DNA of 23,852 bases from a virus. Below, piece after piece: positions 5,734-22,994 of this stretch. Position 1 is the stretch's first letter, and each line of letters opens with the position of its first letter. The translations under genes were made by a program, and so were the position numbers. The notes beneath the pieces were generated by a model. The model saw only the letters and a list, made by a program, of their open reading frames with translations. It was not told the origin of the DNA and did not search any database. The stretch is from IMG/VR virus record IMGVR_UViG_3300006752_000229, positions 1 through 23,852 of that record; one strand, 5' to 3'.

Positions 5734-5914
5734 AACCAATCTGGAAATATATTGCCCACCGATGGAGCAGTATTCTTCAGAATTTAATCAAGAATTAGCG
5801 GATGAGTTGGAGGCCCTAGACGGGGAACAGACAACTATACCGATGGCAATCGCTGATTACGCAAAGCTGCGTGACCGAATCCGTGCATGTGAAAAAGAGA
5901 AGGATAATATCTAA
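5669..5914 (+). CDS. Rz1: o-spanin (Rz1-like outer-membrane lipoprotein)
   Basis: An 81-residue lipoprotein in a different frame from the i-spanin gene, starting inside it and running 181 bases past it. MKLTVLMTASLLLTGCGG is a lipoprotein signal peptide with lipobox LLTGC; lipidation would be at Cys15. The mature part, about 67 residues, begins with a short segment containing CPP and then a charged helical region. It is less proline-rich and longer than lambda Rz1. The frame is open further upstream, but the signal peptide fixes the start at 5669; the ribosome binding site is weak, which suggests coupling to i-spanin translation. Its stop shares one base with the next ATG. Confidence 0.78.
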   Translation: MKLTVLMTASLLLTGCGGTVYRTNLEIYCPPMEQYSSEFNQELADELEALDGEQTTIPMAIADYAKLRDRIRACEKEKDNI

Positions 5915-8340
5915 TGGGCTTATGGTCATCCACATTCGGCGGCGGTAACAGCTTTACGGAAAGCGTAGCCAACACATTTACTCCTGACGATGGCGCATCC
6001 TACGTTAATGGAACGCTAACGTATGACTCTGGGTCTAACGCAGGTACTGTTGTTCCTACAAACTCTTCGGGGGGATACGGAAGTGATAGTGACGGCAATT
6101 CAGTTTATACAGGTAGTGCGAACACCACAGGAAACGACAATGAGGCCAATGTTACTTCTAGTGGAGTAAACGAAGACTTCGTACCAAAGGGTTCTGCCCC
6201 GTCTGGAATTAATAAGATTTTAGGGTTTGCTTCACCTACTGGTGTAATTGGCGCATTAGCAGGATGGGCTAACGGAACAGACCCTGAAAAAGATCCTAGT
6301 CAGGTTATCGATGGCAGGGTGGTATATACTCGACCAGGAAAAGATGGTGAACCAGATTTTCAATACTCCCATAATTTTTTGGGAATGCAGTATCAGGTAG
6401 AAGTGAATGAAACCACAGGCCAAGTACAAGACTTCTTACGCAAAGACGCATCTGGTAAATATCCCGGTGACGAAGGGTATGATCAATCAACGTCTGGCTA
6501 TGAGAAAATGGCCCAAGATGCCCGTGACCGTGGGGATAATGATCAGGCAGACGCTATTCTTCAAGAAGCTGCCGACAACGCTACTGAGGACGATGGTAGT
6601 AATGATGCGACTAAGGGCGCAGAAGTTATTATTAAGATGGCTGAAGAAGCTGGTATGGCTACTAGCAACGAACAAATACAAGCTATCCTAGATGATCCTG
6701 CGGGATGGTTAAAAGATAATGGCGCTTCGCTTTTAGATAAAGTACCTAATCTTGATCCTGAGACTGCAGGAACATTGCTAGACCCTACTAACCCTAACTA
6801 TTTATTAGGTGATAGTCCTACTGTTGCAGTCGCAACCACAGGGGATGCATCTACAGTCGATAGTGTAGTTAATCCTGGCGCAGAAACATATGATGCCAGT
6901 ACAACCGCAGATCAGCTAGGAACAGACGCAACCACCGTAGATGCAGCCACAGGTGAAATTCGTGATGAAAACCTAGTAGACGCTGCCCAAATTGATATGA
7001 CAGGCGCTGCCACAGGCGTAAATGAAGACGGTACAGTTAGTGTAACAGGCGAGGCCCTTAATGACTTTGCCACACAAAATATTAGTAATATCATCGATAC
7101 GTCTACGGTTGCAGGTAAACTGCTTGCCCAGAAATTAGGTGAAGGTAACTACACCGATAGTAAGGCCACCATTCTAGGGCAGATGGAGATTATCTCTGCC
7201 GAATTTAAAGATAGTAACGGCAACCCTGTAATACCGCCTTGGGCACAATCACTTTCCCGTGACGTTGCAAAGACAATGGCTTTCTCTGGTATTTCTGGAA
7301 CCGCCATGACTGCGGCAATGAGCAACGCAATTATGGAAGCAACCTTGGGTGTTGCAGAAAAAGAGGCCTCTTTCTTCCAAACCCTCACAACTAAAAACCT
7401 AGATAACCGACAAGAAGCTATAATTAACAAAGCCGCCGTGCTGGCTAAATTTGAGGTAGCAAATCTGGATGCCCGTCAGGCGGCTGCGGTACAAAATGCC
7501 AAGGCATTCTTGGAAATGGATTTGGCTAACCTGACTAATGAGCAACAGGCTGAAGTTATAAATACGCAAGCTATGGTTGATGCCATCTTTAACGATCAAT
7601 CGGCTATTAACGCAGCCCGTTTGTTTGGGGCAGAGCAAGCCAACGATATGCAGAAATATTATGATAATATGAATGCACAGATTTCGTTGCAGAACGCTGA
7701 ACAAATCAATCAGATGAAGCGATTTAATACTGGCGAGATTAACGACAACCGTGAGTTTAATTCTAAGCTAGAGCAGTCTCGCCAAGAGTTTTATGCAGAT
7801 ATGCAATACAACTTGGATCTTGCTAATGCCAAATGGAGACAAACAGTAGCCACTACAAATACGGAAATGGAATTTGATGCGGCAACGCTAGATGTTAAAA
7901 ATGCGTTTGATCTGTCTACAGAATCAATGACCCGACTGTGGGATCGTGTAGACAATCTTTTGGATTATATTTTCAAGGGATGGAATGCAGAAGCAGACCG
8001 TGACGCCACTATATTGGGCGCAGAGATTAGAGCGCAAGCAGGACAAAGCAGCGGCGGTAATGGCATTATGGACGGCCTCATAACTCTAGGTGCTGCATGG
8101 ATTAGTTCTGGTCGAGGGTGGCCTTCTGATGAACGATTAAAGACAGACATTCAGTATCTGAATACTGAAAAAGGCTTAAAGATTTATAGCTGGAAATGGA
8201 ACAAAGAAGCCAAGCGTATAGGGGCAGATAAGTTCCCTGCTTACGGGGTTATAGCACAACAAGTTCAGAAGAAATATCCGAATGCTGTTTCTGTCGGTTC
8301 TCATGGCTATCTCACAGTTAACTACGGAGAAATCCAATGA
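5914..8340 (+). CDS. Large virion structural protein with C-terminal S74-type chaperone motif
   Basis: An 808-residue protein with AAGGA 9 bases before its ATG. The first 100 residues are low-complexity (Gly, Ser, Asn, Asp). The middle (about 230-380) is acidic and Thr/Asp-rich. From about 470 to 690 it is strongly helical, rich in Ala, Gln and Asn, with repeats like NLDNRQEAIINKAAVLAKFE, NLDARQAAAVQNAKAFLEMD and NLTNEQQAEVINTQAMVDAI, suggesting a long coiled coil. The C-terminus has PSDERLKTDIQYL, then YGVIAQQVQKKYPNAV and YLTVNYGEI: the S74 intramolecular chaperone signature, with Ser738 and Lys743 as the likely self-cleavage pair. The domain is only 71 residues, shorter than in the tail fibre gene. 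A tail or other virion component is likely; the exact role is unknown. It abuts the lysis genes and is coupled to the next gene by ATGA. Confidence 0.8.
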   Translation: MGLWSSTFGGGNSFTESVANTFTPDDGASYVNGTLTYDSGSNAGTVVPTNSSGGYGSDSDGNSVYTGSANTTGNDNEANVTSSGVNEDFVPKGSAPSGINKILGFASPTGVIGALAGWANGTDPEKDPSQVIDGRVVYTRPGKDGEPDFQYSHNFLGMQYQVEVNETTGQVQDFLRKDASGKYPGDEGYDQSTSGYEKMAQDARDRGDNDQADAILQEAADNATEDDGSNDATKGAEVIIKMAEEAGMATSNEQIQAILDDPAGWLKDNGASLLDKVPNLDPETAGTLLDPTNPNYLLGDSPTVAVATTGDASTVDSVVNPGAETYDASTTADQLGTDATTVDAATGEIRDENLVDAAQIDMTGAATGVNEDGTVSVTGEALNDFATQNISNIIDTSTVAGKLLAQKLGEGNYTDSKATILGQMEIISAEFKDSNGNPVIPPWAQSLSRDVAKTMAFSGISGTAMTAAMSNAIMEATLGVAEKEASFFQTLTTKNLDNRQEAIINKAAVLAKFEVANLDARQAAAVQNAKAFLEMDLANLTNEQQAEVINTQAMVDAIFNDQSAINAARLFGAEQANDMQKYYDNMNAQISLQNAEQINQMKRFNTGEINDNREFNSKLEQSRQEFYADMQYNLDLANAKWRQTVATTNTEMEFDAATLDVKNAFDLSTESMTRLWDRVDNLLDYIFKGWNAEADRDATILGAEIRAQAGQSSGGNGIMDGLITLGAAWISSGRGWPSDERLKTDIQYLNTEKGLKIYSWKWNKEAKRIGADKFPAYGVIAQQVQKKYPNAVSVGSHGYLTVNYGEIQ

Positions 8341-8516: not shown

Positions 8517-9066
8517 TTTCCCGATTGCTGGTGCAAACTACGCTGCAGACACCCGTAATTATCCTTGGCACAGACCACCTGATATCGTCAGTTACGATGA
8601 GGGTGTTGATTATTTAATCAGAAAAATGAATGAGCCAGAAGAATTAGAACTGGTTTATGCTCTTTTAAAAATTGATACGCACGTTGCTACGGTCGTAAGC
8701 GCAATACTTATGCAGGGCATTTCCCGTGGTAAGTTTTCTATTGATTTAGCTATCTTAATGGCAGGCCCACTAGCCCGTTACATTGGTATTATAGCCGATG
8801 AACAGGAAATTAAGTACGACATGGGGCTGAACGAAGAAAACCGTGTGGTAATTACACCTACTTCCCTAAAACTGGCGCTTGGCATCTTTGATGATGACGA
8901 AGAAGAAGATCCTGATGAAATTGTGGAAGAGGCAGTAACCAATTCAGAGGGTGGCTTAATGGCTACACCAACAGATGCAGAAACAGCCAGTGAAGAAGAA
9001 CAGGCTGCAATGCTAGGTTTATCAACTGATGAAGAAGAAGAGGAGCCTGTAGATGGGTTGGCGTGA
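8503..9066 (+). CDS. Conserved phage structural-region protein with acidic C-terminus
   Basis: A 187-residue protein with AGGAG 7 bases before its ATG. The N-terminal half has a YPWHRPPDIVSYDEGVDYLI segment followed by helices (LELVYALLKIDTHVATVVSA, FSIDLAILMAGPLARYIGII). From memory this pattern (NYPWxRPP, a helical pair, then a segment like GxHSIDVxLLI) occurs in uncharacterised proteins near the structural genes of marine phages. The C-terminal 60 residues are strongly acidic and low in complexity (FDDDEEEDPDEIVEEA, TDEEEEEP). The hydrophobic stretches look like buried helices, not clear membrane spans. It overlaps its neighbours by 14 bases on both sides. The function is unknown. Confidence 0.75.
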   Translation: MKMFDFPIAGANYAADTRNYPWHRPPDIVSYDEGVDYLIRKMNEPEELELVYALLKIDTHVATVVSAILMQGISRGKFSIDLAILMAGPLARYIGIIADEQEIKYDMGLNEENRVVITPTSLKLALGIFDDDEEEDPDEIVEEAVTNSEGGLMATPTDAETASEEEQAAMLGLSTDEEEEEPVDGLA

Positions 9067-11530
9067 TACACAAGCGGCGGTTTCTTCTGGTAAAAAGAAT
9101 TATTACAAAAACGAAGATTCATTTGGTTTAGCCTTCTCAAAGGGCGCAGACATCATTGCTAAAAGCTGGATGCAGCAAGCGGCTGATGAAAAAGAAGAAG
9201 CAAAGATTAAAGCCAAAGAGGAAAGAGCGGCACGAAGGGCTGCGGCTGAACGGCAACGTAAGGCAGAAGATAAGGCACAGAAGAATAAAAAGAATGCCCT
9301 GATCTTATCTGAAACTTTTTCTGGCACAAACAATAACCCGCAGGCGGTAAACTATTTCCAACAGCAACTTACCTTGATGGACGGAGATGTTGGTGCAGTT
9401 ATGACTGCTACTCAGAATATGGTGGAAAGCGGAAGGCTGGAATTTACAACTGAAACTGAGAGCCTTGAATTACAGGGGCCGCTGCTACGGCGTAGTGACG
9501 TAGATACGGATGTTGCCGATAGCAGTACACTCGCTGCTTATAAGAATGCTGGAGCCATAGACGATTTTGAGACTAAAGATAGAATCCGTGACACTGTTGG
9601 TGATTTAAGAGACTTGGGCGGTACTATAAAGGGCGGCATGGAAAAGCAGATGGATGCTATTCTTGGCCCTGAAGGTGAAAATGATGCTTCCCTTGAACCC
9701 GTAGAAATAGAGAAGCGTGGAATTAAAATCACGCCATTTGGGGAAACCCCTGCTAAACTTGATTACACAAGATTAAAAACCCTAGAAGATATTGAGTTAT
9801 ATAAAGATGAACTCAAGGGCGACAATGTTACCTTAGATGCGGATCTCTTAAAAATACTGGAAGACAGAGAAGCACTGCTTAAAGGAAGAGGTTTAAAAGC
9901 TACCATTAATTCTCTTGCTGGTGATTTAGAAGCTGCAAAAAACCAGCTTCAGGCCGCAGAGGTATTAGGAGAAACGAAAACAGACGAATACATTGCTATT
10001 CAAGCACTTGTAACCTCTGAAGAGAAAAACCTTAAACCGTGGGAAACTATCGTAGAGCCTGACTCTTTTATAGGATTGAATAAAGGTGAGATGGAACAGA
10101 AGCGGCGGGTTGCTAAATCTTTGGGTGCTAAAGATGATGACCTAAAGATTATTGATGCAGAAATAACGGCATTGAAGGAAATCAAGGAACCAATCGAGTG
10201 GAGTACAATTACTAAAGATAACTTTGAAGGCGAAGCCAAAGAACTTGAAGATGCTGGTGATCTCGATGGTGCTAAACGAGTTAGAGAATACGGCAAGGTA
10301 ATATCTGCAGATAAGCCTCTAAGTATAGTCGATTTAGATAAACTAAGTGATGATGTTCTTGAAATTCTATCGTCTACCGTTACAGATTCTGATTATAAGG
10401 CAGACATTGATAGGGTAAGAGTACAGAAAAGCGCATCCGCTGCAGCACAAGAAATAAATGATTTTAATATTGCAGACTATGACGATGTAGATACCGCTAC
10501 TATTACTTCTATAATAAATACGGAAGGCACTGCACCTCAAAATATTGTTAAGTTACAAGAACTTCTTAATAACAGGAATGCTCAAGCACCTAAGATTTTA
10601 CCAGGAAGCGAAACTTTCCTAATTAAGTACAAATCTGAAACGGGAGAAATTGAAAGTACTACTGCTAAACTTAATGAAAATAATCAGTATGTTGATCTTA
10701 ATGATCCTACTAAAACCCGTATTCCTGTTGAGGGAGAACAGGTTATAAACTTGGATCTACAAGATGATATATACGATGGTGTAATTAAGATTAACCAATC
10801 TACTATTCAGCCTCTTAAAAAGCAGCGTATAGGTATGGCTACTACGCTGGAATCAGCAAAGAAACTTGATGATTTAGTTAACCCTGAAATGGGTGGTAAT
10901 CCCGCTATATTAACTACAGTAGGCGGTAAAGTACTTCCATTTATAAAGAGAGTAGGCGTAGAAGTTGGAACTATCGTAGATACGTTTAACGAAACTAGAT
11001 CTTTATCAGATATTGAGACAAATATTGATAGTGCAGTAAATCAATATCTAAACAGTATCCCTGGATTAGACGAAACCACAAGAAAAGCTGCTCTGTTTCA
11101 AGCAGAGAAGATTAAACTGGCGTTTACCTTTGCAGCAAGTTCTCTAGGACAATCAGGGCAAGGACTATCGAACAAAGACTTTGAAAAAGCACTTGCCATA
11201 TTAGATCAAGGTAACACCTATGAAACCTTTAGTGCTAACCTGAAGAGTCAAGCAGCGGCAGTCGTTAAAAAGACCCAGAGGATGATTAATGACTTCAACG
11301 AAGATGATGCTGTTATTATGTTACAGAGGCGTGATCAAAACCTATTTAAAGGTTACGGAAAATCAACAGGTCTTTATGCAAATGATAACGGGATGGCAGA
11401 CGCATTCTCATGGTTATCAGGAAAACCTACTTTAGAAAATTTCTTATCCCGTGCTAGGGAAGAAAATCCTGGTGTAAGCGATAAGGATTTAACAGATTTC
11501 TGGTCTAAAACTTACGGGGTATTAAAGTAA
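9053..11530 (+). CDS. Large probable internal virion protein
   Basis: An 825-residue soluble protein; AGGAG lies 7 bases before the ATG, inside the end of the previous gene. Residues about 40-85 form a highly charged helix (EEAKIKAKEERAARRAAAER), followed by a long, mostly helical body with acidic and Leu-rich segments (DLEAAKNQLQAAEVLGETK, AKELEDAGDLDGAKRVREYG). The C-terminal third contains ETTRKAALFQAEKIKLAFTF and SLGQSGQGLSNKDFEKALAI. No enzymatic motif or signal was recognised. Position between a tail structural protein and a 1132-residue partner, and the size of both, fit the pair of large internal or DNA-ejection proteins of podoviruses (compare T7 gp15 and gp16), but that comparison is by context only. 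Confidence 0.68.
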   Translation: MGWRDTQAAVSSGKKNYYKNEDSFGLAFSKGADIIAKSWMQQAADEKEEAKIKAKEERAARRAAAERQRKAEDKAQKNKKNALILSETFSGTNNNPQAVNYFQQQLTLMDGDVGAVMTATQNMVESGRLEFTTETESLELQGPLLRRSDVDTDVADSSTLAAYKNAGAIDDFETKDRIRDTVGDLRDLGGTIKGGMEKQMDAILGPEGENDASLEPVEIEKRGIKITPFGETPAKLDYTRLKTLEDIELYKDELKGDNVTLDADLLKILEDREALLKGRGLKATINSLAGDLEAAKNQLQAAEVLGETKTDEYIAIQALVTSEEKNLKPWETIVEPDSFIGLNKGEMEQKRRVAKSLGAKDDDLKIIDAEITALKEIKEPIEWSTITKDNFEGEAKELEDAGDLDGAKRVREYGKVISADKPLSIVDLDKLSDDVLEILSSTVTDSDYKADIDRVRVQKSASAAAQEINDFNIADYDDVDTATITSIINTEGTAPQNIVKLQELLNNRNAQAPKILPGSETFLIKYKSETGEIESTTAKLNENNQYVDLNDPTKTRIPVEGEQVINLDLQDDIYDGVIKINQSTIQPLKKQRIGMATTLESAKKLDDLVNPEMGGNPAILTTVGGKVLPFIKRVGVEVGTIVDTFNETRSLSDIETNIDSAVNQYLNSIPGLDETTRKAALFQAEKIKLAFTFAASSLGQSGQGLSNKDFEKALAILDQGNTYETFSANLKSQAAAVVKKTQRMINDFNEDDAVIMLQRRDQNLFKGYGKSTGLYANDNGMADAFSWLSGKPTLENFLSRAREENPGVSDKDLTDFWSKTYGVLK

Positions 11531-14500
11531 TGGTAGATATTGTAGACCCATTTGCTACTGAAGAAGACGAAACAAATACAAGTAGTGTTATACCTATAGA
11601 AACAGACAACACAGAGCCTGTTCCTGTAGAGGCAAGTAGTGAAACTAGCATCGTTGATCCTTTTGCTTCTGATGATTTAGAAAACACACAAGAGGGCGAA
11701 GAAGATGAGCCTACTTTAAAAGAAATAGCTGAAGAAGAACCTGATGCTATTAGCACACAGATGTACTCAGGCCTTACTTATAGTGAGGCTAGAGAAAAAT
11801 ACGATACTCTCATGGAAAGCCCTGATGTTATAAAGCCTTTATTTGGTTTGGGTTACGCAGTATACGAAGACCCCGAAACAGGTAGGCGTGAATATATACC
11901 CCGACCAGATATGAAGATGTTTGGTAAAAATGGTATGTTGGACAATACTTATGATGTTATTGCGGGGCTACTAACTGGTGATTTGGACAGGGCATCGACG
12001 GCTTTTGATGACACTGAAGCCAAGGTAGATGAATTTAGTAAAATTGCTTTGGGTCTTAGTGAAAGTGCTGGGGCTATACTTGAAGCAGGCGCTGCAGGAG
12101 CAGAAGTATTAGGGGCAGAGGGCGCAGTAGATGCCATAAGCCCGTTAATCGTTAATGTCGATACTGGCGACAGCTTTGGGGATGCTATCCTAACAGATGC
12201 TGTTCCTGCGGTAATAACTTCTTTTGGGGGGGGTGCTGCCGCACAGGTAGTTACAAAGGCTCTACCTAAAGTAATTAGAGGTTTTGCAGTTCTTGCCGCC
12301 GCTGAAACAGGCGCTGCAGCTACAACCAGTACAGACGAAGGAACCTTATTCCTTGGTGGAGAAAAGGCTGCTCTTATCCCAATAGCGCAGGGCCTTGATC
12401 TTGGCGACAGCAAGGCAGAAGACATAATTGAGCAGCGTGTAAATGTGCTTGTTGAAGGTATGTTTTTAAACAGTGCGCTTTCAGGGGTTGTAATGACAAC
12501 CGCACAAGCCGCTAAACTGGCATCTAAATTCACTATCCTTCCATTATTAGACGCAGGAAGAGAACAAACTATTACCCGTAGGATCTATGATGAATTAACC
12601 GAAAGCCTTATAAAGATTGATTTTTCTACTACACCTCAAGAAATAGCAGAAGCAAAAAGAGAACTTGCTCGAATTGTTGAAGAAAATAAAACAGTTCTTC
12701 TTCCTGAGATACAAAATCTTGCTGCTAAAGAAGTACCAGTAGATACTCTTTCTGCTCTTTTGAGGGGCACTGCAGAACCAGAAGATATAGCAAGAATTTC
12801 AGGGGTTCGTGCAGGTAATATACAAAAAGCATCTAATAACCCGCAGTTAATTGCTGCTTCTGAGGGGCCTGCTAGAGAACTACAAAAACAAGTGGATGAT
12901 CGCCTAGCGGAAATATCCTCAGATGTTCCTGCAGAACAAGTTGATACTATTGCCGCCGCCGCAGATGAATTGGCAACAGATGCCCGTGCTTCCGTAGCAT
13001 CCGCTGATATTAACGCCGTAGATGCACAAACTAATTTTGACGCTGCAGCAAAACAGGTAGTCGAAGGTATCCAGAATGCAGATCTGGAACTTAGTGGTCA
13101 GATTAGTCGTTTAGAGCAGGTAACTGGAACGGACATTGTTACAGATAAATCTGCTTCCTTTGATCAAATCAGAAACGGTTTGATGCAAGCTAAAGAAACA
13201 ATGAGCAAAACAAAAGACGATCTGTATAATGCAATACCAGACGGTACGCCTTTTGATTATAGTAGCTTTGCCGCACAGGTAGAAGAGGCCGTAAAACAAA
13301 TAAATCTTTTGGATACAAGCGGTACAAGAACCAAGAGTGTTGATCTTATCAATACAATTAGGTCTGTTTTAAAACCAAAAGAAGTCGTAGAAGATGCGCC
13401 CTTTGTACCATTTGGGGTACAGGGAACAACTACAACTACTACAGAAGCAGGAGACTTTGCTGAAGAGTTACTCAACGGTGGCGTTGATTTTAAAACCTTA
13501 TACAACAAGGTTCGCCCAGAACTTTCTAACCTAATTGATCAGGCCTATAAGCGTGGCGATGATATGGTAGCCAAACGCCTTATAGATGTTAAACGTGCTA
13601 TTGATGATCAGGTACAGTGGGTTGCGGAAAATGCAGACGAAGAGGCGGCAGATGCTGCCACGAAAGCATATACCTATTATTCAGATCAATACGCCCCTGT
13701 TTGGCGAGATGGTGGAGTAGTAGCTGATTTTGGCGATCTCTATGAGCCAGTTATGACAAGGGGAACTCAGAAAGCTGGTTTTAAAGAGCGTAGCCGTGAA
13801 CTGGTAACCTCTGTTCTTGAGGGTAATAATGCTGATGCTGTATTAAATATGAAAACAGCACTTGAGCAAGTAGAAGACCCAAAGGCAATTGCTGATTACA
13901 TGATTACAGATGTAATTAATGGGTTTGCTTCAAAGGTAAGGTCAGAAGGATCTATGACGCCTGAAGCACTAAAAGGAATGTCGGATAGACTACAACAATA
14001 TGCGGATTCGCTTAACCAAGCTTTTCCTGAACGGGCTAAACAAATTAATTCTTTAGTTGCCTCAATTGAATCTGCAGCGGGAAATAAAAAATTACTAGAA
14101 GCTGCCCTTACTACTGCAGAAGAAGTCGCATCACAGACACGAAAAGAAGTTAAAAAAACAGAATTGGGTAAGTTTTTAAGTAATGTATACGGAAGGGAAA
14201 TGGCTACAAACCTAAACCCAGAAGATGCTTTTGTTAAAATATTTAGAGAATCTGAAGGCATAGGAACAATACAGGATATTGTTGCCCGTTTAGATGATAT
14301 GCCCCCAGCCCGTGCTTCTGTAGTTCGTGATGGTATGGAAACTGCTTATCTAAGATATCTGTCAGAAAAAGTATCAGGTGCGAAAGTACAAAGCGGCGGG
14401 GCTACAACATTAAAGGGTGCTAATGTTGATCGAACACTGGAAGAGGCTAACAATATACTTTCGATAGGTAGAGAAATTTACTCTGAACAACCAGAGCGAA

Positions 14501-14928
14501 TGGAAACTTTTGAGATCCTGTTAGATGCAGCCCGTATGATTGATAAATCTAATCAGGCAACTCCTGTTCCGGGGGTATCTGCAACGGCATTTAATAAAGA
14601 AGCGGTACAAGCAACTAATCGAATGATTATGACACTTATTGGGCCTCTCAATAGAACTGGTGCAAAAATTCGTTCGATAGCAGGTGCAACATTTGATGCT
14701 TTAGATACAACTAACAGGGCGCAGAAAATTTTAGATAATATTTTAGCGGACCCAGAGAGGTTTCTAGAATTAGCTAAAAAATACGATACATACCCAATGG
14801 ATCCTTTAGTTTATGAAAACTTAATTACAGCAATAACTGCGGGTACAACTAAAGCAGTAAGTGCTGAGAAAGAATATATGTACGACCAAAACAATGTAGA
14901 TCAGCAAATGATGGATCTTATTCCTTAG
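11530..14928 (+). CDS. Very large probable internal or DNA-ejection virion protein
   Basis: An 1132-residue protein whose ATG overlaps the previous stop by one base (TAATG). The acidic N-terminus holds a duplicated motif, IVDPFAT (4-10) and IVDPFAS (41-47). Residues about 180-275 are rich in Ala and Gly with several hydrophobic helices (SAGAILEAGAAGAEVLGAEG, AVPAVITSFGGGAAAQVV, GFAVLAAAETGAAATT), which could contact or cross membrane. The rest is long helical, coiled-coil-like sequence (DRLAEISSDVPAEQVDTIAA, KKLLEAALTTAEEVASQTRK). It is the last gene of the plus-strand arm, ending before the terminator cluster. Size, membrane-active-looking segment and helical body fit a podovirus ejection protein, but no lytic transglycosylase motif or named family was recognised. 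Confidence 0.68.
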   Translation: MVDIVDPFATEEDETNTSSVIPIETDNTEPVPVEASSETSIVDPFASDDLENTQEGEEDEPTLKEIAEEEPDAISTQMYSGLTYSEAREKYDTLMESPDVIKPLFGLGYAVYEDPETGRREYIPRPDMKMFGKNGMLDNTYDVIAGLLTGDLDRASTAFDDTEAKVDEFSKIALGLSESAGAILEAGAAGAEVLGAEGAVDAISPLIVNVDTGDSFGDAILTDAVPAVITSFGGGAAAQVVTKALPKVIRGFAVLAAAETGAAATTSTDEGTLFLGGEKAALIPIAQGLDLGDSKAEDIIEQRVNVLVEGMFLNSALSGVVMTTAQAAKLASKFTILPLLDAGREQTITRRIYDELTESLIKIDFSTTPQEIAEAKRELARIVEENKTVLLPEIQNLAAKEVPVDTLSALLRGTAEPEDIARISGVRAGNIQKASNNPQLIAASEGPARELQKQVDDRLAEISSDVPAEQVDTIAAAADELATDARASVASADINAVDAQTNFDAAAKQVVEGIQNADLELSGQISRLEQVTGTDIVTDKSASFDQIRNGLMQAKETMSKTKDDLYNAIPDGTPFDYSSFAAQVEEAVKQINLLDTSGTRTKSVDLINTIRSVLKPKEVVEDAPFVPFGVQGTTTTTTEAGDFAEELLNGGVDFKTLYNKVRPELSNLIDQAYKRGDDMVAKRLIDVKRAIDDQVQWVAENADEEAADAATKAYTYYSDQYAPVWRDGGVVADFGDLYEPVMTRGTQKAGFKERSRELVTSVLEGNNADAVLNMKTALEQVEDPKAIADYMITDVINGFASKVRSEGSMTPEALKGMSDRLQQYADSLNQAFPERAKQINSLVASIESAAGNKKLLEAALTTAEEVASQTRKEVKKTELGKFLSNVYGREMATNLNPEDAFVKIFRESEGIGTIQDIVARLDDMPPARASVVRDGMETAYLRYLSEKVSGAKVQSGGATTLKGANVDRTLEEANNILSIGREIYSEQPERMETFEILLDAARMIDKSNQATPVPGVSATAFNKEAVQATNRMIMTLIGPLNRTGAKIRSIAGATFDALDTTNRAQKILDNILADPERFLELAKKYDTYPMDPLVYENLITAITAGTTKAVSAEKEYMYDQNNVDQQMMDLIP

Positions 14929-19104: not shown

Positions 19105-19974
19105 TTAAAGTTCCACACCCTCATACTGGACATACCAGTTTTTCTTAGGCTCTTTGGCCTTTGACATGGGCTGTGGAAGTAGCTTGGCCTTGGGCCAGCA
19201 TGACTTTTTAAAGTCGCACCAGCTACAAGATGCAGGAAGCTTTTTTGAGCCTGTGTATTTCTTATTGAAGAAGTCATCGACAGGCTCAAAACACCTATCA
19301 AACGACCAATCTTCTTTAAGCGCAGTGGCCTTCATCTGCATTTCCTGCAGGACTGTATCCTTCTCATCTTTAGAGAAATCGGCATCCATCACCAGAACCT
19401 GTCCAGTGCTTTTGCATACTACAATCCAGCCACCAGCTTTCTTGCTTTTGGCTTCTGAATAACCAACTAGCTGACCAACGTAACCAAAGTCATCGTTAGC
19501 TTTTAAGGCAGGTAACCCCATCTTCCACTTACGCTCAAAGGCAAAGGGAGAGCATGTTTTGATATCATAGACTTTATTGTCTATCTCAACATCATCTTCA
19601 CCTTTAACGGTTGTACCTTCTAACTCTAAGGCAACCTTATCTTTACTGCCTGTGATATTGGCCTTGGCGATTTTAAGGATCACATCCATTATGCATTCAA
19701 CAGCATCACCGTGCAGCATCCGCATAATAAAGTTGTAGTCTTTGCGTTCCTTCGTAGCGCCGCTTTTAGCCATCTGTAGCTGGCACAAGGGTTTACCGAT
19801 GTTGGACATGCGAAGACGAAAGTCTTCATCCTCACGCTTGGCAAACTGTCTGCGTAAGGCATCTTTGAATGCCTCACCCGCATCTTCGATCCAGCTATCA
19901 TCAATATCCAGCGTGTCGCCTTCGTTGTTAGATAGCTGGTCTAAGACCTTGTGTATGTCAGCCTGCAGGCTCAT
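19105..19974 (-). CDS. Cas4/RecB-like PD-(D/E)XK exonuclease with putative iron-sulphur cluster
   Basis: A 289-residue nuclease. RecB-type motifs appear in order: His88 (RMLHGDAVE), Asp127/128 in KGEDDVEIDN, Asp137-x-Lys139 in YDIKTC, and Gln168-x3-Tyr172 (GQLVGYSEA). One Cys before the core (Cys64, GKPLCQLQ) and three near the C-terminus (Cys250, Cys253, Cys259 in SCSWCDFKKSCW) match the four ligands of the 4Fe-4S cluster of Cas4 and AddB-type nucleases. There are no Cas1 or Cas2 genes nearby, so this is a phage DNA-processing exonuclease, probably for end resection, recombination or host DNA breakdown. Its start overlaps the ssDNA-binding candidate by four bases. Confidence 0.85.
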   Translation of the reverse strand: MSLQADIHKVLDQLSNNEGDTLDIDDSWIEDAGEAFKDALRRQFAKREDEDFRLRMSNIGKPLCQLQMAKSGATKERKDYNFIMRMLHGDAVECIMDVILKIAKANITGSKDKVALELEGTTVKGEDDVEIDNKVYDIKTCSPFAFERKWKMGLPALKANDDFGYVGQLVGYSEAKSKKAGGWIVVCKSTGQVLVMDADFSKDEKDTVLQEMQMKATALKEDWSFDRCFEPVDDFFNKKYTGSKKLPASCSWCDFKKSCWPKAKLLPQPMSKAKEPKKNWYVQYEGVEL

Positions 19975-20801
19975 GCTACATCTTCAAAATCATCGTCAAG
20001 GCTTTCGCCCAAAGCTTTAATGGCCTTGGTATCGATGCTGCCCTGTTTCATCTTCGCAAAGTGTTCTTTATCGATGTATTTGTTTTCGTCACGAATGGTT
20101 TGTGCAAAAACCTTCATTGTTTCAAACGCATCACGATCAAGAGCAAGCTTGTTGTTAAGAAGCGGCTTCCAGTGGATCTTAAAGAATACGGTTTCACCAA
20201 CTTTCATCCGCTCAGTGGACATTTCAGATTGGTAGTCGTGAAGATTTGCGTGTTTGGGCAAAAGCTTCATATATTCATTGAAAAACCCGCCGTAATTCGT
20301 ACTGCCTTTACCAAAGTAAATGGCTGGTTGGTTTTCAATCTTAACAGACGAACCGTCTAGTGTATGACCATCCATTGTGACCAAGCCACGAACCACACGC
20401 CGTTGGCAATCTTTGTATTTCTGCCGTAACTCTTTATCTTCCGCACGAACTTCCCATTCAGGCATTCCACACGCTATACCGCCTGCCGTATCACGGGCTT
20501 CATCCCGCAAATTATTACATACCAGTGATTTGGTAAGCTTATCGTCTTCCCACAGATAATACTGGATGTGGGCCATCAGAGGCCTAAATAAGGGCTTCTT
20601 TGCGTAGACAATCCCTTCGGGCATATGAAGCCGAAACTCGCCACGGGGCATTACGTTTCCATCATCATCATCTGGTGAATGCTGGTGATCAAATTTTGGT
20701 ACACGAACTAAGCCATCACTGGAATCTCCGACACTTGCGGAGCCTAAAATATCGGAGAATTGCTCTAACTCAATGCTATCAACTGTTGTTATATCGTTCA
20801 T
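19971..20801 (-). CDS. Putative single-stranded DNA-binding protein
   Basis: A 276-residue soluble protein, first gene after an internal promoter, with AAAGG 9-10 bases before its ATG. It lies between polymerase and Cas4-like exonuclease, where many phages put their ssDNA-binding protein, and ends in an acidic tail with an aromatic residue (LDDDFEDVA), as ssDNA-binding proteins such as T7 gp2.5 do. The body has alternating strands (VVRGLVTMDGHTLDGSSVKI) and an FGKGSTNYGGFFNEYMK segment. Three Cys (near residues 95, 110 and 132) are not arranged as a clear zinc site. The OB fold cannot be confirmed by eye, so this call leans on context and tail; it could be another replication protein. Confidence 0.5.
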   Translation of the reverse strand: MNDITTVDSIELEQFSDILGSASVGDSSDGLVRVPKFDHQHSPDDDDGNVMPRGEFRLHMPEGIVYAKKPLFRPLMAHIQYYLWEDDKLTKSLVCNNLRDEARDTAGGIACGMPEWEVRAEDKELRQKYKDCQRRVVRGLVTMDGHTLDGSSVKIENQPAIYFGKGSTNYGGFFNEYMKLLPKHANLHDYQSEMSTERMKVGETVFFKIHWKPLLNNKLALDRDAFETMKVFAQTIRDENKYIDKEHFAKMKQGSIDTKAIKALGESLDDDFEDVA

Positions 20802-20855: not shown

Positions 20856-22994
20856 TCAATCATATTCGACTTGATCTAGCCAGTTTTTGCCGCCTGATAT
20901 TTCGATTTCTAGGGGCAGAGCGAAGGTGTAATTCCAACGCTGTTCAGCCTCTTTGGTTACGTCCACCATAGCCCATGTCAGGGCCTCTTTGACTTTCTCA
21001 AGTTCGCCTGGATAGACGTCTGAGACAATTGAGTCATGGACAGTGAGTATCAGTTTAGAACGTAGTTTAAGTTCTCTGAACTTACGAAGCGCACGAACAC
21101 AGGACAGTAGCATCAAATCTGCGGCAGAGGACTGCACAGGGTAATTTACTATCTGTGTGTAGTGGCTTGTACGCCCACCACGCTTACGAACTACGTTAGG
21201 CCAAAAGAACTGTCTTCCAGATGGGATCTGCACAATACCATTCTTTAGAACCCCGTCTGCAAGCCTACGGTGATACGCACCAAGACCTTCATAAATCTCA
21301 AAAAAAGTTGAAAAATACGATCTGACGTGATCTGCCTCTCCAGCCCCCAATCCTCCATAAATCGGAGCAAAAGAGAATTTCTTCGAAGCCTGGCGGCGGT
21401 CTTTTGTAACTTCATCTTCACTGCACTGGTAGATGATAGATGCAGTCTGTTTGTGTAGATCCTTGCCTGTCTGAACATCAGATATGATCTGAGGGTCACG
21501 GGATAATTCTCCAGCCAAAACGAATTCAACAGAACTGAAATCACTTTCAACTATCGTTCCGTTTTCAAATCTACTAACGACCGCCTTACGCACAGGAAAC
21601 CCACGCTTTGGGGCGTTCTGCATATTTGGAGAAGTACTAGATAGTCGGCCTGTTGCAGTGACGTGCTGGGTGAAATTGGTATGCAGAATTCCATCTGCCC
21701 GTGTCCAATTTTCAAAGCCCTTAACGAAAGAATCCAAATACACACTGACTGCGTTTAGCCTGCTACTCTTAGTAAGAAACTCAACGGCGGTATCATTGCC
21801 CTTGGCCTCTGCCTGAGAGATTAAACGCTGGATAGTAACCTTGTCGGTCTTAAAGCCATTAATCGAAGCGTCAGAGGGCATGGTAGGGTTAAGGCGTAGG
21901 CCTGCTACTTTACCATTTGGCTGATAGAATGCTCCTACACCCGCACAGGACGGGCATTTAGACAGGTTCTTATATGGTTCACCTTGAACACGATACTTCT
22001 TACCGTTCTTTTGGCGGGTCTTCTGTTTATACTTCTGTATATACGCCCTACCATCACAAGCATCACAACAAACAGCATTTGTCTTATATACAACCCGTGT
22101 AGTGGCCCTTACCGCAGCGTTAAACTGTGATCTGTTCATTCTAGGTGGGAACAGGGGCTTGTTGTTGCTATCTGTGCCTATATTCCATACCTGTTGATGG
22201 TCATCACGATCAATAACCTCACGGCTATAAACAACCCGTGTCATGTCCTGACCGCTATTGAGATTTATGACGGTATCACCCATCACTTGCTCAACAATTT
22301 CTTCTAGGCGCTTGGTTAATTCAGTTTGCTCTGCAAGAAACTCTTCTTTGATCCCTGCAAGTACATCCAGATCCACTTTGATGCCGTTGCCCTCTATCTC
22401 TACAAGAAACAGAAGCATTTCGTTTGTAAGCTTAATCGTTTCACTTAACGATTTGTTGCTTTCATGGGCTAGGTCATTCTGTTGGGCCAGATATATCTCA
22501 GCGCAGGAGATAACATCAGCTTCTGCATATTCTAGAACAGTATCCAAGGGCATTGCCTCAAATCCCGTACCGCTCTTGAACAGTTCATCTACCAGATCGG
22601 ATTTCTTGCGGGTTACATCCCTTCGCTCTGCAGTAGCCTTTAGAGACAGTTCCTGCCTCTGACCCTTTGCCAGTATATATTCGCAAAGCATCGTGCAGAA
22701 TACATTTTCTGGTATGTCGAAGCCCATAGCAATGAGCCATGCAACATCAAACTTGGCGTTGTGTGCGACTAGCACGTCAGCCTGTTCTAACGAATGTTCT
22801 AACGCCTTGCGGCTATCAGGAGTTTCTTTTTCATTATGATGGAAGACAAGGTTAGTCACCTCGTCTACCGTATCCCACCCAAGAAAACCAAAGTGCGCTG
22901 AGACACACTTATTCTGTGGATTGAAGGGGCTGTTATCAATCTTTCCCTCGATTTTCTTAACGGTGGTTTCTAAGTCGAGTACAAGTACTCTCAT
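20856..22994 (-). CDS. polA: Family A DNA polymerase with DnaJ-like zinc-finger insert
   Basis: A 712-residue replicative polymerase. Residues 1-170 are the 3'-5' proofreading exonuclease with Asp7 and Glu9 (LVLDLETT), Asp83 (VAHNAKFD) and Asp160 (EYAEAD). The polymerase core has Asp485 (VESDFSSVE, motif A), motif B with Arg534, Lys538, Phe542 and Tyr546 (RRQASKKFSFAPIYGG) and motif C His653-Asp654 (TVHDSIVSD). The residue equal to E. coli 762 is Phe. Between exonuclease and polymerase, CCDACDG (Cys310, Cys313) and KCPSCAGVG (Cys347, Cys350) form a pair of CxxCxG knuckles about 33 residues apart, like half of the DnaJ zinc domain. This insert is the hallmark reported for HMO-2011-type marine phages. 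The ATG overlaps the previous stop (ATGA); the ribosome binding site is weak, so coupling is likely. Confidence 0.96.
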   Translation of the reverse strand: MRVLVLDLETTVKKIEGKIDNSPFNPQNKCVSAHFGFLGWDTVDEVTNLVFHHNEKETPDSRKALEHSLEQADVLVAHNAKFDVAWLIAMGFDIPENVFCTMLCEYILAKGQRQELSLKATAERRDVTRKKSDLVDELFKSGTGFEAMPLDTVLEYAEADVISCAEIYLAQQNDLAHESNKSLSETIKLTNEMLLFLVEIEGNGIKVDLDVLAGIKEEFLAEQTELTKRLEEIVEQVMGDTVINLNSGQDMTRVVYSREVIDRDDHQQVWNIGTDSNNKPLFPPRMNRSQFNAAVRATTRVVYKTNAVCCDACDGRAYIQKYKQKTRQKNGKKYRVQGEPYKNLSKCPSCAGVGAFYQPNGKVAGLRLNPTMPSDASINGFKTDKVTIQRLISQAEAKGNDTAVEFLTKSSRLNAVSVYLDSFVKGFENWTRADGILHTNFTQHVTATGRLSSTSPNMQNAPKRGFPVRKAVVSRFENGTIVESDFSSVEFVLAGELSRDPQIISDVQTGKDLHKQTASIIYQCSEDEVTKDRRQASKKFSFAPIYGGLGAGEADHVRSYFSTFFEIYEGLGAYHRRLADGVLKNGIVQIPSGRQFFWPNVVRKRGGRTSHYTQIVNYPVQSSAADLMLLSCVRALRKFRELKLRSKLILTVHDSIVSDVYPGELEKVKEALTWAMVDVTKEAEQRWNYTFALPLEIEISGGKNWLDQVEYD

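Follow-up and report, generated by a model that had tools for sequence, protein, structure and literature searches.

The stretch of viral DNA analysed here (hereafter the window) is a virus fragment of 23,852 bases, IMG/VR record IMGVR_UViG_3300006752_000229, which encodes on its minus strand a DNA polymerase of the HMO-2011 type with a cysteine-bearing insert (Table 1). The polymerase gene belongs to a phage replication module, whose other products are a protein of 276 aa, a DnaB-like helicase with only part of its gene in the window, a RusA-like resolvase, a Cas4-domain exonuclease, MazG and ribonucleotide reductase. Searches of Pfam, PHROGs and PDB sequences gave no match to the 276-aa product, which was therefore dropped as a candidate for a known ssDNA-binding protein; it is still a possible ssDNA-binding protein or docking partner. 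Elsewhere in the window, on the plus strand, positions 9053-11530 and 11530-14928 encode proteins of 825 and 1132 aa without a PHROGs match at E 0.01, and positions 5914-8340 encode a likely self-cleaving tail fibre or spike, a protein of 808 aa whose C-terminal domain is a Peptidase_S74 (endosialidase chaperone).

Table 1. Features of the polymerase locus, in window positions (residue numbers are those of the polymerase)
Feature	Positions	Strand	Basis or remark
DNA polymerase, family A with 3'-5' exonuclease, HMO-2011 type	20856..22994	-	712 aa
3'-5' exonuclease domain, about residues 1-175	22470..22994	-	PF01612, E 5e-8 (residues 62-172); conservation
Polymerase domain, residues 380-706	20877..21857	-	PF00476 match, E 6e-58
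Thumb-tip insertion, residues 259-384, between H1 and H2	21843..22220	-	Model secondary structure; E. coli PolA alignment
Putative DnaJ-type half zinc module, residues 302-363	21906..22091	-	PDB profile match; VIA-align, low Z
Knuckle 1, Cys310/Cys313 (CDACDGRA)	22044..22067	-	Invariant, 84/84
Knuckle 2, Cys347/Cys350 (CPSCAGVG)	21933..21956	-	Invariant, 84/84
12-residue basic hairpin extension, residues 325-336	21987..22022	-	37-spacing class only
Phe542, equivalent of E. coli Phe762	21369..21371	-	Alignment with E. coli PolA; 84/84
Next gene downstream, 276 aa, acidic C-terminal tail (ALGESLDDDFEDVA)	19971..20801	-	No family match

The window protein is a family A DNA polymerase in which the catalytic residues of motifs A, B and C are present: alignment with E. 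coli PolA pairs D485, R534, K538, F542 and D654 with D705, R754, K758, F762 and D882, respectively. In the exonuclease domain, D83 and D160 align with E. coli D424 and D501, and D7, E9, D83 and D160 are conserved among relatives, D7 and E9 being misaligned to the E. coli enzyme because of their position at the alignment edge. An AlphaFold2 model of the whole polymerase, computed from a 61-sequence alignment, has a pLDDT of 91.7, and the ten-residue blocks between residues 291 and 370 score 84-95. The nearest isolates in the phage collection are the Roseobacter phages CRP-235 (65.1% identity), CRP-738, CRP-3 and CRP-212, whose polymerases are 57.5-65.1% identical to that of the window and share its domain order, four cysteines and Phe762; the HMO-2011 polymerase itself is 37.6% identical. 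A tree built without the insert columns clusters the window polymerase with those of CRP-738 and CRP-235 with a support of 1.00, the deeper node that brings in CRP-3 and CRP-212 having a support of 0.09. Near-identical contigs (L001-L009, L011, L016-L018) and short fragments were excluded from this tree. In single datasets of the Global Ocean Virome (GOV 2.0), up to 19.7% of the family A polymerases are reported to be of the HMO-2011 type (PMC9038755).

Cys310/313 and Cys347/350 lie exactly where the earlier note had placed two DnaJ-like CxxCxG knuckles. This description holds for the four cysteines and for the second motif, which is complete, and has to be amended for the first, which lacks the last glycine (CDACDGRA). 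In 84 intact HMO-2011-type polymerases these four are the only fully invariant cysteine columns, and such conservation is not due to chance. Both pairs are present in 31 of 31 HMO-2011-type polymerases (the window, 19 IMG/VR contigs and 11 isolates) and in each of the 73 loci with an intact frame, out of 76 retrieved from the best 80 of 592 confirmed relatives, a sample that stops short of more distant HMO-2011-type polymerases. The contig search that yielded these loci used peptide patterns located outside the insert, which was thus not selected for. Three loci have broken frames (L068, L087 and L089, all left out of the 84-sequence set): the module is intact in another frame in the first two, and was not found in the other frames of L089. 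The four cysteines are present in all of the contigs L001-L019; the scan left out L020 (an N-terminal piece only), L216 and L217, together with L039-L041 and L085, which are second copies of contigs already covered. Ten further loci come from MAGs or from an uncultured isolate, in contigs about 8-63 kb long, and the eight tested all have the module. The view that the insert marks the HMO-2011 type is borne out: every intact relative examined carries it, including 84/84 polymerases, and a check for its absence in close relatives turned up only carriers among the intact ones.

The published definition of the type is a partial DnaJ domain with two CXXCXGXG motifs (PMC9038755), and the window polymerase belongs to it with four cysteines, a complete motif 2 and a motif 1 ending in GRA. 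The missing last glycine of the first motif sets it apart from its nearest isolates. Four of the 11 isolates also deviate, in motif 2 (CRP-345, CRP-207, CRP-2 and CRP-603; L027 and L030-L032), which reads CxxCxxxG without the middle glycine in contrast to the two published CXXCXGXG motifs. The constant part of the knuckles is the four cysteines, not the glycines. The zinc module has a dN/dS of 0.04-0.09 (four comparisons), and the remainder of the protein one of 0.05-0.07 (three comparisons); in the comparison with L042, the module value of 0.092 stands on a near-saturated dS of 2.6, and the rest of the protein is saturated. These ratios point to purifying selection on the predicted zinc module, with a constraint similar to that on the remaining protein. 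A search of 50,697 phage records gave no convincing match to the insert in unrelated phage proteins: 10 of 18 rows were HMO-2011-type polymerases and the other eight had E-values from 4 to 7, in a search that missed two known carriers, CRP-2 and CRP-603. A related polymerase occurs in 3,921 phage records, the cysteines having been inspected in a minority of them, and the insert is likely rare outside the HMO-2011 type.

The likeness to DnaJ emerges from profiles. A profile of the insert searched against PDB sequences returned E. coli DnaJ (1exk) first, with an E-value of 5e-4, in agreement with the DnaJ-like character that had been claimed for the Cys-knuckle insert; the alignment covers motifs 2 and 3 of the four CxxCxGxG motifs of DnaJ, which we take to form its inner zinc site. 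We therefore read the insert as probably one half of a DnaJ cysteine-rich region, matching only inner motifs 2 and 3, and since only these two are matched, a single zinc would be expected. The Pfam DnaJ match of the window protein itself is weak (E 1.3, below the cut-off); the other 60 of the 61 sequences in the alignment match this family at E<=1. Searching the PDB with the insert as one sequence gave no DnaJ match, its only match being unrelated (E 0.47). The insert modelled alone has a pLDDT of 87 and a pTM of 0.49. When this model was compared by VIA-align with 160 chains preranked by Foldseek, 10 of the 11 rows listed were DnaJ-type modules (from DnaJA2, DnaJA3, DnaJ, BSD2, Anti-TRAP and UvrA, the last of which we count as DnaJ-type), with Z-scores of at most 4.0 and some large rmsd values; the best row had a Z of 4.0 and an rmsd of 5.3 over 53 aligned residues. 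Foldseek with the insert alone returned nothing below E 2.7 and no DnaJ row. Anti-TRAP, BSD2 and UvrA are unrelated cellular proteins whose modules are weak fold matches of the insert model, and the Pfam Anti-TRAP and BSD2 families match 22 and 6 of the 61 relatives, respectively.

The earlier note had located the insert between the proofreading and polymerase domains. The model and the E. coli alignment instead put it inside the tip of the thumb, because the helices that flank it are the thumb helices H1 (residues 248-256, equivalent to E. coli 583-591) and H2 (residues 385-397, equivalent to E. coli 611-620). The H1-H2 loop is 128 residues long here versus about 14-20 in E. coli Pol I. Helix H spans residues 209-238 of the model, and the gap from H to H1 is only 9 residues; a T7-type thioredoxin-binding domain is therefore absent from this position in the model. 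A first alignment had equated the T7 thioredoxin-binding domain with the insert, an equivalence that was discarded on the strength of the T7 order: the T7 domain precedes H1 (T7 H1, residues 339-348; crosslinked stretches of the domain, residues 269-302; PMC9198812), whereas the insert lies between H1 and H2, and the two are neighbours. Both are basic thumb insertions in phage family A polymerases. They differ further in that the insert has cysteine pairs and T7 gp5 has no CxxC, which, for T7 itself, upholds the earlier statement that T7-like enzymes have no zinc site.

Between the knuckles, the model forms a two-stranded hairpin (strands 322-329 and 332-340) whose conserved positions include K321 (57/61), K323 (54/61), G338 (61/61) and P340 (55/61). 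The spacing from the first to the third cysteine takes only two values among the 84 polymerases, 25 (n=63) and 37 (n=21). The window polymerase shares the longer with CRP-738, in contrast to CRP-235, CRP-3 and CRP-212, which have the shorter; the difference is exactly 12 extra residues, rich in lysine and arginine. On the insert-free tree, spacing changes four times, compared with a mean of 18.9 and a minimum of 15 in 500 label shuffles. Over the stretch equivalent to residues 314-346, the 46 short forms average a net charge of +5.1 and the 15 long forms one of +9.1, the whole proteins being slightly acidic (net charge near -1.5 across the 61). In the window polymerase this stretch has a charge of +9, unmatched by any non-overlapping stretch of equal length; among the 61 proteins, the inter-knuckle stretch strictly exceeds all others of that length in basic charge in only 28.

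From features that can be read directly, namely the sequence of the insert, its conservation, its location, its predicted secondary structure and its charge, we infer zinc binding, DNA contact and an effect on processivity. The best explanation, to which we give an even chance on the analysis as a whole, is a zinc-clamped basic thumb hairpin that would grip the primer-template and raise processivity without thioredoxin. A single predicted zinc, with Cys310/313 and Cys347/350 as its ligands, would clamp the base of a Lys/Arg-rich hairpin (about residues 319-346); projecting from the thumb, this hairpin would grip the phosphate backbone of the primer-template duplex as it leaves the active site; and the enzyme would stay on the DNA without thioredoxin, much as the basic insertion loop 1 does for Pol theta from its thumb. 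The processivity contact raised as a possibility by the earlier note is thereby kept as the best reading. In T7, residues 346-355 (H1/6c) and 360-373 (6d/H2), which bracket the loop, crosslink to the template (PMC9198812). Loop 1 of Pol theta, likewise an additional Lys/Arg-rich thumb loop in a family A enzyme, binds DNA and raises activity through its lysine and arginine residues, and its deletion weakens binding, with a Kd of 138 instead of 29 nM, and reduces activity; it differs from the insert in being disordered (PMC9841435), and the exonuclease of Pol theta is inactive. The position and charge of the insert agree with this comparison, loop 1 itself probably lying in the H1-H2 loop. In VIA-align of the whole chain, Pol theta is the first row (Z 36.6), followed by Bst Pol I (35.2), which Foldseek ranks first. 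Against a grip on DNA stand the usual role of DnaJ-type modules, which bind proteins rather than DNA, the inter-knuckle stretch not being strictly the most basic in 33 of 61 proteins, and the low scores of the insert fold.

The protein-binding habit of DnaJ-type modules also speaks for the main rival, in which the insert docks the acidic tails of replisome partners. A gene starting at most 300 bases after that of the polymerase encodes a protein of 269-311 aa in 56 of 79 loci, and 46 of these 56 proteins have an acidic excess of at least 4 in their last 14 residues. A precedent is provided by the T7 polymerase, whose basic patches bind acidic helicase tails (PMC5997990, PMC12593628). Nevertheless, no ssDNA-binding family was found for the neighbour in the window by searches of Pfam, PHROGs and PDB sequences, and the window helicase has no acidic C-terminal tail. 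We consider docking possible, at about half the weight given to the grip; it is not exclusive of DNA gripping, and the two are compatible.

Polymerases outside the HMO-2011 type bear on both the grip and a second rival, according to which the zinc module serves only to brace a long thumb extension, of a type that other podovirus-type polymerases share, without any specific partner. In distant phage polymerases that lack the DnaJ module, the same loop has a large extension of its own with a basic motif, a point in support of the grip, and the length of this extension (67-146 residues in 56 such relatives) also favours stabilisation. Of 80 relatives retrieved with an alignment of polymerases without the module, 79 were translated and 73 parsed, and a GKN-x-GEPKTKK-like motif occurs in 66 of the 73 by a loose pattern that gave at least one spurious hit (L132); by eye it was also seen in 11 further sequences, six of them unparsed and five parsed but pattern-negative. 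This motif resembles the GEPYKNLSK of the insert, and a full-length profile alignment places both near each other. Ancestral homology of the two hairpins is nonetheless not claimed, which counts against the grip: an insert-only comparison scored 13.0 (E 0.15) and shuffles scored equally high, the 30 column shuffles giving 16.2, 14.1, 13.9 and lower values, plus one odd value of 132.

One of these relatives, the L156 polymerase (L156:1001-3376), has two CxxC pairs (CPKCRG and CEHCCD), both N-terminal of the basic motif. This single sequence suggests a second, independent addition of a putative zinc site in the same loop, and its different topology is compatible with zinc bracing that may recur, as stabilisation would have it. 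Against stabilisation, the hairpin is conserved as well as the cysteines, at K321, K323, G338 and P340, and its length has changed four times on the tree, each time by the same 12 residues, suggesting selection on the tip. Stabilisation by itself is, in our view, improbable.

The DnaJ likeness could also betray a co-chaperone contact recruiting host DnaK/Hsp70 to the replisome, as in lambda, and a role of DnaJ in lambda replication is mentioned in PMC9038755. The similarity of the insert to the inner motif pair of the DnaJ cysteine-rich region fits such a contact. The type I DnaJ/Hsp40 proteins, however, have four CxxCxGxG motifs, of which the window protein has only two, and hence one expected zinc site; the module is embedded in a polymerase thumb and its basic hairpin is longer than in DnaJ. 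Moreover, no J-domain family appears among the five Pfam matches of the window protein at E up to 10, in a search where the HMMER filters drop most matches above about 0.1. A co-chaperone contact is accordingly very unlikely. The last rival, a primer hand-off in which the zinc module of the polymerase stands in for a primase zinc domain that was lost, as might be imagined from the proposal that Pol theta loop 1 acts like the zinc-binding domain of the T7 primase (PMC9841435), is barely credible, as an N-terminal cysteine cluster is kept in 3/3 primases (HMO-2011, CRP-235 and the near-identical contig L016, whose gene was called a primase from its likeness to that of CRP-235), which rules out the loss for these three.

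Returning to the zinc-clamped grip, we propose more tentatively, and with less than even confidence, a broader scheme for this abundant marine phage lineage: the half-DnaJ zinc-clamped H1-H2 hairpin would act as a built-in processivity device in place of a T7-like thioredoxin-binding domain, zinc would have been added to this loop at least twice, and the grip of one clade would have been lengthened by the 12-residue basic step. The insert is already published as a hallmark of HMO-2011-type polymerases ("partial DnaJ central domain"). The HMO-2011 literature consulted gives no mechanism for the insert beyond a mention of DnaJ co-chaperone biology. With respect to that literature, four points are new: the placement at the thumb tip, the finding that the inner pair of DnaJ motifs is the one matched, the basic hairpin together with its step of 12 residues, and the proposed role in processivity or docking. 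A search for literature combining HMO-2011, DNA polymerase and zinc finger found no paper, and PMC9069017 makes no mention of HMO-2011, DnaJ, zinc or thumb. Placement at the thumb tip makes the insert directly testable as a processivity or docking device. If the proposal is true, these phages would achieve with a single chain what T7 achieves with thioredoxin, and their solution might help in the design of processive enzymes.

The alignment also bears out the earlier identification of Phe542 as the residue matching E. coli 762. Phe762 and Tyr762 are found only in virulent phages according to Schmidt 2014 (cited in PMC6302109), and the lifestyle link of this residue, on which the earlier note drew, fails here. 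Pfam Phage_integrase matches all 11 related records examined, namely two isolates and nine IMG/VR contigs picked mostly for their length, and 10 of these matches exceed the cut-off; CRP-3 is reported to integrate (PMC9038755); the window fragment ends before any integrase. A virulent lifestyle can therefore not be deduced from Phe762 in these phages, where the residue is a poor lifestyle marker. A 2026 preprint on the T7 Y526F substitution (PMC13228545) reports a specific activity lower by 50% and a burst smaller by 53%, and one of its section headings reads 'decrease efficiency but maintain fidelity', so that residue 762 may bear on speed more than on fidelity.

Finally, two sets of records deserve mention for their annotation. 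In the Vibrio phages ICP2_2013_A_Haiti and Saratov-15 (L033 and L124), the family A polymerase is annotated as two in-frame CDS of 399 and 294 aa, adjacent and parted by a stop and a few bases, and it is possibly naturally split. HMO-2011-type polymerases are also carried by MAG contigs labelled Flavobacteriales, Neomarinimicrobiota, Euryarchaeota and others (L208-L213); L208/L209 and L212/L213 have an identical contig number and length under two differently named MAGs, and the binning of these two pairs looks wrong.
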